Below, one piece after another: positions 5,333 through 8,061 of a stretch of 64,000 nt of DNA (position 1 is the stretch's first letter; the number at the start of each line of letters is the position of its first letter). The position numbers and the translations under genes were made by a program. Origin of the DNA: Fodinibius sediminis. GTDB lineage: Bacteria > Bacteroidota > Rhodothermia > Balneolales > Balneolaceae. The stretch covers positions 62,001 through 126,000 of the forward strand of contig NZ_FXTH01000003.1 of assembly GCF_900182555.1 (NCBI RefSeq), written 5' to 3'. Under the pieces are notes generated by a model. The model searched no databases. It was not told the origin of the DNA and worked only from the letters and a program-made list of their open reading frames with translations.

Positions 5333-5773
5333 TTATCGCTCCAGTACCAGCGTGACTGGACCGTCGTTATGCAGCTGTACATCCATGTAGGCCCCAAAAC
5401 GGCCCGTTTGTACTTTTAGCTCCGAGTGTTTCCTAAAATAGGACACCATCGCTTCGTACAGCGGTTCGGCCTTGCTGGGATCCGCCGCCTCAATGTAACT
5501 GGGCCTGTTCCCCTGCTCATAATCCCCGTAGAGTGTGAATTGGGGTACCACCAATATCTCCCCTTGCACATCTACAACCGATAGGTTCATTCTCCCCTTC
5601 TCATCATCAAATATACGCAGGTTCAGAATCTTTTCAGCCAGCCATTCCATATCCTCTTCCGCGTCATCTTCATGAATACCCACCAACAGCATCATTCCGT
5701 TATTAATTGCTCCCACCTGCTCATCGCGCACCATTACGGCTGCCTCAGAAACTCTTTGAAGTACAACTTTCAT
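5333..5773 (-). CDS. dtd: D-aminoacyl-tRNA deacylase
   Basis: This 146-residue protein is the standard length for Dtd, which removes D-amino acids (classically D-Tyr) and mischarged Gly from tRNA. The start MKVVLQRVSEAAVMV is typical. The catalytic motif reads PQFTLYGD where most have SQFTLYGD. The cross-subunit motif is NDGPVTLVLE, the GP-containing loop that excludes L-amino acids. It is a homodimeric cytosolic proofreading enzyme. It is transcribed away from the putative replication origin to its right and probably forms an operon with the downstream metalloenzyme gene. Confidence 0.96.
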   Translation of the reverse strand: MKVVLQRVSEAAVMVRDEQVGAINNGMMLLVGIHEDDAEEDMEWLAEKILNLRIFDDEKGRMNLSVVDVQGEILVVPQFTLYGDYEQGNRPSYIEAADPSKAEPLYEAMVSYFRKHSELKVQTGRFGAYMDVQLHNDGPVTLVLER

Positions 5774-5789
5774 ATCTATGCCTGTTAAT

Positions 5790-6151
5790 AATTATGTGGA
5801 CAACTGTGTGAATAACTCTTTCTCAGAATAAACCAATGAAAACCAACAAAAATTCTCCACAGCTTTCAACAAAAAAAATCCATTATCCACAGATTATACA
5901 GCTCAATATTCGTGCGGATAAAAAAAATAACTTGACATAGCTTTTAACAATAAATGTGGATAACTTATTTTTAATTCCCGTAAACCCTTGTTTTTATTCA
6001 TTTACTTATCCACAAAATAATCCACAATCCATTATCTAAAGATAAATATTTGTGCATCAAAAAGTTTTCCACTTATCCACAGCCCCTACTATGTACTACA
6101 AAATTTATCTATCTAATATATATTATGTTTTCCGGTGGATAATGTGGAGAA
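5790..6151. other. Putative chromosomal replication origin (oriC) with DnaA-box cluster
   Basis: The AT-rich gap between divergent dtd and purM carries five exact DnaA boxes (TTATNCACA). They are at 5883-5891, 6006-6014 and 6073-6081 on the + strand, and at 5807-5815 and 5955-5963 on the - strand. One-mismatch copies are at 5795-5803, 5853-5861, 5913-5921, 6018-6026, 6134-6142 and 6143-6151. The segment at about 6083-6130 is nearly pure A/T and could be the unwinding element. Such density and mixed orientation is characteristic of bacterial oriC. No dnaA or dnaN gene is visible nearby, which is not unusual in Bacteroidetes-related phyla. Confidence 0.75.
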
Positions 6152-6222
6152 ATAATCCTTAAAAAGGAAGCTCAATCTTTCTATATTCTTAACAGTCTAA
6201 AAAGCCAATACACTCTTACAGC

Positions 6223-7233
6223 ATGAGTTCAAAAAAAATTACCTACAAGGATTCCGGTGTCGATATAAAAGCCGGTGAGGAAATGGTTGAATCAATAAAA
6301 GGCCTGGTCCAACAGACCCACAGTGATGCCGTACTGCGTAATATTGGGGGGTTTGGAGGCTTTTTTCGTCCCAACCTTTCCAGCTACAGTGATCCTGTTT
6401 TTGTCAGCAGCGTAGATGGGGTTGGCACCAAGCTTATTGTTGCATTCAAATGCCGTAAATATAACACTGTTGGACAGGATTTGGTTAACCACTGCGTCAA
6501 TGATATTGCGGTTTGTGGAGCAGATCCTCTCTTCTTTTTAGACTATTTTTCTACGGGCAAGCTGGAGCAGAAGGTGGGTTACCAGGTAGTTAAGGGATTT
6601 GCGCAGGCCTGTAAAGAAAATGACGTTGCCCTCATTGGTGGTGAAACAGCCGAAATGCCCGATATTTACAGCGATGGAGAATTTGATCTGGCAGGAACCA
6701 TTGTTGGACTGGTTGACCGCGATCATGTGATTGACGGATCTGCCATTGAAGAAGGGGATCTCCTGCTGGGCGTTCCCAGTTCCGGGCTCCATACCAATGG
6801 ATATTCGCTGGCACGAAAGGTGCTTTTTTCAAAGTACGAGGTAAGTGATCATGTAGATCAGCTCGATACCACCGTTGGAGAGGCTATGCTGAAAGTACAC
6901 AAGTCCTATTTGCCGATTATTAAAAAATTACGTGACCTGGATGGTGTGAATGGGTTTTCACATATAACCGGTGGCGGAATCATAGGAAATACCAAACGCG
7001 TTGTACCTGATAATCTAACCATTCAGTTAGATTGGGATGCATGGAACCGACCGGCAATATTTGAAATGATCCAGGAAATTGGTAATGTGCCTGAAGATGA
7101 TATGCGGGCCACTTTTAACCTGGGTATTGGACTCATTGTCATTGTTAATCCGGATATTGCGGGGGAAGTGAGAGCCCATGCTGCGGAGATGAATGAAGAG
7201 ATAATTGAGCTCGGGAAAATAGGATCATCGTAG
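6223..7233 (+). CDS. purM: Phosphoribosylformylglycinamidine cyclo-ligase (AIR synthetase)
   Basis: This 336-residue protein catalyses the fifth step of de novo purine synthesis: FGAM + ATP to AIR. It is of the PurM/ThiL/SelD ATP-binding superfamily. Visible signatures are YKDSGVDIKAGEEMVESIK at the N-terminus, VSSVDGVGTKL (~60-70), the metal/phosphate site DLVNHCVNDIAVCGADPLFFLDY (~84-106), LIGGETAEMPD (~136-146) and SSGLHTNGYSLAR (~189-201). HITGGGIIGN lies in the C-terminal domain. Length is normal. It is transcribed away from the putative oriC. No other pur gene is adjacent. Confidence 0.96.
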   Translation: MSSKKITYKDSGVDIKAGEEMVESIKGLVQQTHSDAVLRNIGGFGGFFRPNLSSYSDPVFVSSVDGVGTKLIVAFKCRKYNTVGQDLVNHCVNDIAVCGADPLFFLDYFSTGKLEQKVGYQVVKGFAQACKENDVALIGGETAEMPDIYSDGEFDLAGTIVGLVDRDHVIDGSAIEEGDLLLGVPSSGLHTNGYSLARKVLFSKYEVSDHVDQLDTTVGEAMLKVHKSYLPIIKKLRDLDGVNGFSHITGGGIIGNTKRVVPDNLTIQLDWDAWNRPAIFEMIQEIGNVPEDDMRATFNLGIGLIVIVNPDIAGEVRAHAAEMNEEIIELGKIGSS

Positions 7234-7338
7234 AAGACCGTTTATATCGGGCTTTTGGAGGGATCACCTGGCTGTACAGATACCGACTTTAAATCCCATT
7301 ATAGGGGATTATAAATTTATATTAAAAGGGAGGATGAT

Positions 7339-8061
7339 ATGGATAAACGACCACTGCTGTTGCTTCATGGGTCGCTTGGTGATCTTACTCAGCTTGAGTC
7401 CTTGGTTCCACAGCTGGAAGAGCATGCTGAGTTGCACCGCATGGATTTTGAAGGCCATGGAGAATCTGCGGTCCCCAACAGCCCATTCCGCATTGGCTAT
7501 TTTGTAGAGAATGTTCTGGGTTATATGGATGAGCACGGACTTGATACAATAGATATTTTTGGATACAGTATGGGCGGTTATGTGGCTCTTTGCCTGGCAA
7601 AAGAGTATCCCCAGCGTATCCGGCGGGTAGCGACACTGGGGACAGTGCTGCAGTGGACTGCGGAGGTAGCCCGTCGTGAATGCCGCTATTTGCACCCAGG
7701 CAAGATCACAGAGAAGGTACCGCATTTTGCGGAGCAGCTGAAGGAGCGACATTCCGGCGACTGGGAGCGGGTTGTGAACCGCACACGGGATATGATGGAA
7801 TATCTGGGAACTCATCCCTTTATTCAGCCTGGTGACTGGCAGGGAATTAAGCAGAAAGTTCGGCTCCATATTGGTGACCGGGATACCACCGCTGGACTCG
7901 ATGATACACTTGAGGTATACAAAATGATGGATTATGCTGAACTGGCCGTATTGCCGCGCACGGGGCACCCCATTACGGAGGTCAACCATTCTATGTTGGT
8001 CTCCTCCCTGATCGATTTTTTCAGGGAAAGAAAAAAGCCCGGCGAGAATGACCGGGCTTGA
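7339..8061 (+). CDS. Alpha/beta hydrolase
   Basis: This 240-residue alpha/beta hydrolase has the oxyanion segment LLLLHGSLGD (~6-15), the nucleophile elbow GYSMGG (~75-80), the acid in HIGDRDT and the catalytic His in RTGHPITEVN near the end. It resembles the small MenH/BioH-like esterase group, but the substrate cannot be named. An AGGA-type ribosome binding site (GGGAGGATGAT) lies just upstream. The last ~10 codons overlap a terminator hairpin that serves fabF on the opposite strand, so the hairpin and the C-terminal residues (KKPGENDRA) are encoded by the same bases. Confidence 0.88.
   Translation: MDKRPLLLLHGSLGDLTQLESLVPQLEEHAELHRMDFEGHGESAVPNSPFRIGYFVENVLGYMDEHGLDTIDIFGYSMGGYVALCLAKEYPQRIRRVATLGTVLQWTAEVARRECRYLHPGKITEKVPHFAEQLKERHSGDWERVVNRTRDMMEYLGTHPFIQPGDWQGIKQKVRLHIGDRDTTAGLDDTLEVYKMMDYAELAVLPRTGHPITEVNHSMLVSSLIDFFRERKKPGENDRA
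8031..8059 (-). terminator. Rho-independent terminator of fabF inside the neighbouring ORF
   Basis: On the minus strand an AAGCCCGG/CCGGGCTT stem is followed directly by a T run, ending the fabF transcript. It is wholly inside the 3' end of the convergent alpha/beta hydrolase gene. Confidence 0.85.

Follow-up and report, generated by a model that had tools for sequence, protein, structure and literature searches.

We identified the intergenic region between dtd and purM as the probable chromosomal replication origin (oriC) of a Fodinibius-like bacterium of the order Balneolales, an assignment made from the sequence to which we give a probability of about 95%. The window, meaning the whole stretch of 64,000 nucleotides that was analysed, is contig C3:62001-126000 of a draft genome of 4.43 Mb in 50 contigs, and all positions refer to it unless stated otherwise. 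An oriC at this place, away from dnaA, had already been proposed in the initial annotation of this DNA and is supported by the GC skew, the DnaA boxes and the conservation of the site. The gap between these two housekeeping genes, whose identities are firm, has a length of 449 bp and 29.6% GC; dtd (minus strand) and purM (plus strand) are divergent, as annotated before, and flank the box cluster on either side. The features are listed below, where "shared" marks a position shared within the genus.

5333..5773, minus strand: dtd, D-aminoacyl-tRNA deacylase (TIGR00256 188 bits, PF02580 203 bits)
5774..6222, no strand: proposed oriC, the entire dtd-purM intergenic region (11 DnaA boxes, skew minimum 6246, layout conserved across Balneolales)
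5795..5803, minus strand: DnaA box TTGTCCACA, 1 mismatch, shared
5807..5815, minus strand: DnaA box TTATTCACA, 1 mismatch, shared
5853..5861, plus strand: DnaA box TTCTCCACA, 1 mismatch, shared
5883..5891, plus strand: DnaA box, exact, shared
5913..5921, minus strand: DnaA box TTATCCGCA, 1 mismatch, shared
5955..5963, minus strand: DnaA box, exact, shared
6006..6014, plus strand: DnaA box, exact, shared
6018..6026, plus strand: DnaA box TAATCCACA, 1 mismatch, shared
6065..6073, plus strand: first box of the overlapping pair, TTTTCCACT, 2 mismatches (TTATCCACT in most relatives)
6073..6081, plus strand: DnaA box, exact, second of the overlapping pair, anchoring the putative unwinding core
6082..6101, plus strand: 4-bp spacer GCCC, then trio-like CTACTA-TGTACTACAA
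6096..6126, no strand: A/T-rich segment, proposed unwinding element, low duplex stability
6134..6142, minus strand: DnaA box TTATCCACC, 1 mismatch, shared
6143..6151, minus strand: DnaA box TTCTCCACA, 1 mismatch, shared
6223..7233, plus strand: purM, phosphoribosylformylglycinamidine cyclo-ligase (TIGR00878 370 bits)

DnaA boxes in the dtd-purM gap

Eleven DnaA boxes are present at 5795-6151, all of them inside the gap and in a cluster that spans 360 bp. Four are exact (TTATCCACA, at 5883+, 5955-, 6006+ and 6073+) and seven carry one mismatch. The initial annotation had counted five exact and at least six one-mismatch boxes in both orientations, so that the number of exact boxes had to be corrected to four, while the one-mismatch boxes, the two orientations and the total of eleven were found as described. 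The A/T-only segment reported beside the boxes was also recovered, in the form of two 13-bp segments at 6114-6126 and 5918-5930.

That the boxes occur far above chance, as had been claimed, is borne out by simulation: with a first-order Markov model of the same composition 0.18 boxes are expected for the gap and never more than 3 were obtained in 2000 trials, which corresponds to an observed density of about 60 times chance, and a chance cluster was rejected. Box density was read in 377 kb of the own genome, the remaining data being loci of relatives, and the runner-up 360-bp stretch in these 377 kb, with 5 boxes, is located upstream of dnaA. The gap contains no GATC sites, and an Rfam search of the window found no RNA family.

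GC skew and the region upstream of dnaA

The GC skew of the own genome was followed on two contigs of the draft assembly, over 200 kb on C3 and 178 kb on C6. The cumulative minimum of C3:1-200000 lies at window position 6246, beside the cluster and not elsewhere, with a mean skew of -0.053 in the 60 kb leftward and +0.061 in the 60 kb rightward of it, and 5-kb bins of C3 are negative nearly throughout left of contig position 68,000 and positive nearly throughout right of it. On a 1.64-Mb contig from the same genus (G001) the local 80-kb skew minimum at 920,097 is about 345 bp upstream of dtd (start at 920,442) and within its box cluster. For the closed genome G055, which belongs to another family of the order and whose record starts at dnaA, the skew declines from dnaA (0 kb) to a minimum at 268 kb, as measured in a 400-kb stretch that contains both dnaA and dtd; dtd at 269.3 kb is 1.3 kb from this minimum and the box cluster less than 2 kb away. 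The closed genome G043 shows a broad trough reaching the cluster, with its lowest point at 283 kb; the skew dips again at 320 kb, next to dtd at 320.5 kb. The opposite sign change on the terminus side, as read from sampled stretches, is near the point that faces dtd in both closed genomes and lies between 2.22 and 2.50 Mb in G043 (point facing dtd at 2.19 Mb) and, from noisy data, between 2.2 and 2.4 Mb in G055 (facing point at 2.42 Mb).

Origins adjacent to dnaA occur in Bacillus and many other bacteria. The single dnaA gene of the own genome is on contig C6, a different contig from dtd-purM, and is preceded by 3 exact and 2 one-mismatch boxes. The three main boxes upstream of it (C6:239507-239776; the dnaA loci compared were L009 and L069-L097) are mostly exact, share one orientation and lie about 163 and 98 bp apart, distances that are kept in the genus and in other families of the order. 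These boxes, and a spacing apparently fixed across the order, would suit an origin beside dnaA, with the dtd-purM boxes titrating DnaA or serving in regulation (in the manner of datA or DARS), but the skew on C6 is positive on both sides of dnaA and shows no sign change, as expected inside one replication arm. The same holds for G001, where the dnaA region is 615 kb from dtd and has a steadily negative skew (-0.107 in a 20-kb stretch), and for G043, where no skew change is seen at dnaA at 3.62 Mb (-0.055 in a 20-kb stretch), whereas in G055 the skew falls onward from dnaA to dtd. Moreover, only 5 boxes are found near dnaA compared to 11 in the dtd-purM gap, and the core formed by a box plus CTACTA described below was not found upstream of dnaA in the own genome. 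An origin at dnaA is thus largely refuted by the skew and we regard it as very improbable. The proposed origin is not adjacent to dnaA, and in relatives with both genes on one contig dtd and dnaA are separated by 47 to about 830 kb.

In the simplest reading, the array upstream of dnaA probably serves dnaA autoregulation. A two-part control may be added to the assignment of oriC to the dtd-purM gap, to which it is no alternative: the high-affinity array at dnaA would sense or titrate DnaA and repress dnaA, and both sites would jointly set initiation. In favor of this, the boxes at dnaA are mostly exact and conserved in their spacing order-wide, whereas those of the origin are mostly imperfect, but the large separation of dtd and dnaA makes physical bipartite looping unlikely and autoregulation alone would account for the array as well; we consider such a coupling rather doubtful. 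One genome (G141) has about 16 additional short matches to the Bac_DnaA family, several of them equal-scoring, in frames some 170-290 aa long; these probably represent IstB-like transposon ATPases and not DnaA.

The site in Balneolales and in other orders of the class

The comparison of the box cluster with relatives, which the initial annotation had suggested, was strongly positive across the order. A flank of at least 380 bp upstream of dtd was available for 63 Balneolales genomes; five or more boxes stand beside the gene in 57 of them and three or more in 61. In the two box-less genomes purM was not found beside dtd. In one of these two, G073, dtd has been relocated, yet boxes persist upstream of purM. 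Twelve genomes of the genus, and likewise Fodinibius halophilus (L060), have their boxes at equal distances from the dtd start, mostly to the base, and a register of 13-, 25-, 177-, 240+, 288+ and 359- is common to the family, with close equivalents in other families of the order. Within the genus, identity amounts to 0.943 in the boxes and 90% in the trio-like stretch compared to 0.697 at other intergenic positions, and at third codon positions of dtd it is 0.484, far below the boxes. Two pairs of loci are identical in their first 400 bp, namely L059 (uncultured Aliifodinibius) with that of G008, and L060 with that of G003; as G008 and G003 are members of the genus, the window belongs in Fodinibius or beside it.

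In most family members (L041-L049 and other loci) a gene for a YfiT-like bacillithiol transferase (NF009807, DinB superfamily) separates the cluster from purM, and since it intervenes in many relatives, dtd is the more constant neighbour; the own window has no such gene between cluster and purM. In some members of the genus the gap measures about 980 bp and, in the form in which it was cut, contains no long frame. These arrangements also bear on the idea that the boxes chiefly regulate the transcription of purM or dtd via DnaA and have no origin function. A TATATT element directly upstream of purM (window about 6182-6187 in the alignment) and the divergent promoters expected in such a gap agree with it, but neither the co-located sign change of the skew in several genomes nor the stay of the cluster by dtd, with the bacillithiol-transferase-like gene before purM, would be explained. 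On both grounds we rejected pure transcription control, which we find hardly credible.

Other orders of the class were represented by 30 genomes, in none of which dtd is accompanied by purM or by a box cluster, and the dtd-purM site therefore characterizes the Balneolales within the genomes sampled. Two of these 30 genomes have clusters elsewhere. In G204 (L295:18900-19700) a 470-bp stretch next to an SDR/FabG-like frame contains about ten exact DnaA boxes; this cluster coincides with a skew sign change at a distance of 13 kb from dnaA and is likely the origin of that lineage. In G129 (L285, about 7114-7842, corresponding to C1:913,114-913,842) four DnaA boxes in 400 bp adjoin the local skew minimum at 913,842, 28 kb from dnaA, and here a further lineage within the class is likely to have its origin. 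Because of these distances of 13 and 28 kb we do not claim that the Balneolales origin has left an ancestral dnaA-linked site. In the Rhodothermales-type outgroups G148 and G164 the skew around dnaA is too weak for placing an origin.

Putative unwinding core and comparison with known origins

Conservation in the family alignment is highest in GTTWTCCACTTWTCCACA, which holds two boxes of the same orientation (6065-6073 and 6073-6081) that overlap by one base. The pair is followed by the four-base spacer, by CTACTA and then by A/T-rich DNA. Of all 30-step stretches of duplex in the 64-kb window, only one is less stable than that at about 6096-6126. The pattern TTATCCACA-N1-8-CTACTA occurs a single time in the genome, at the dtd-purM gap, and within the genus, as also among Gracilimonas-type relatives, the box-plus-CTACTA pattern was found nowhere but beside dtd. 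A scan of viral contigs for a pair of boxes overlapping in this way yielded 46 scattered matches. In the own genome and most of its genus two in-register CTA trios precede the almost invariant TGTACTACAA; several relatives have three to five trios, with five in-register CTA/TTA in the Gracilimonas-type genomes G041 and G014.

This order is that of a basal unwinding system (BUS), which consists of a box pair, a short spacer and DnaA-trios with the consensus 3'-GAT-5' (PMC8287927). In a BUS the trios are no more than 16 bp away from a box or a tandem of boxes, and here the spacer is 4 bp; it also has at least three consecutive trios (PMC8287927), and with only two in-register CTA in the own genome we did not file the core as a strict BUS. 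Judged by its elements, the core would work like a BUS without being a strict member of this class.

The box array, the skew minimum, the low stability of the duplex and the conservation are seen in the sequence itself. From established oriC biology we infer that the gap would bind DnaA, melt and fire in the following way. DnaA made from the distant gene would bind the array of mostly imperfect boxes, and a DnaA filament would be seeded at the overlapping boxes 6065-6081 and extend rightwards onto the CTACTA-type trio strand (6086-6101). Melting of the A/T-rich stretch (about 6096-6126) by the filament could then provide the site at which the helicase would be loaded and from which two forks would depart. 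In a wider model, the Balneolales would share one fixed dnaA-unlinked origin by dtd/purM, having as its core the one-base-overlapping box pair and a genus-specific shortened trio element, and the supply of DnaA would be set by another conserved array, made of exact boxes and located at dnaA, giving two separated, co-conserved arrays across the order; for this model as a whole we see the chances as evenly balanced.

The assignment would fix the position of the origin for an order (NCBI phylum Balneolota). Records that begin at dnaA, for example the closed genome G055, misplace the origin, in this case by 270 kb, and its correct position is needed for coverage-based estimates of replication rate, for studies of strand bias and for shuttle plasmids in these halophiles. 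The overlapping pair together with the variable trio run also offers a natural series for testing the minimal number of trios of an unwinding core. A published origin for Balneolaceae, Gracilimonas, Fodinibius or Balneola was not found in the literature searched, which excluded subscription papers and DoriC entries. As dnaA-unlinked origins are well known (PMC10225481), the kind of origin is not new, but the dtd/purM context and the variable trio run are.

Like the oriC of E. coli, which is located between gidA/mnmG and mioC, the dtd-purM site combines an intergenic box cluster, an A/T-rich segment and a skew minimum with a distant dnaA, but its neighbours are dtd and purM or the YfiT-like gene, its box layout differs and GATC is absent. 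With the BUS of Bacillus subtilis (PMC8287927) it has in common two boxes of the same orientation and, behind a spacer of 4 bp (12 bp as counted from the first box), CTA trios followed by A/T-rich DNA. It differs from this BUS in the one-base overlap of the boxes, in the location of the core far from dnaA, and in the two CTA with the almost invariant stretch behind them that are found in its own genus.
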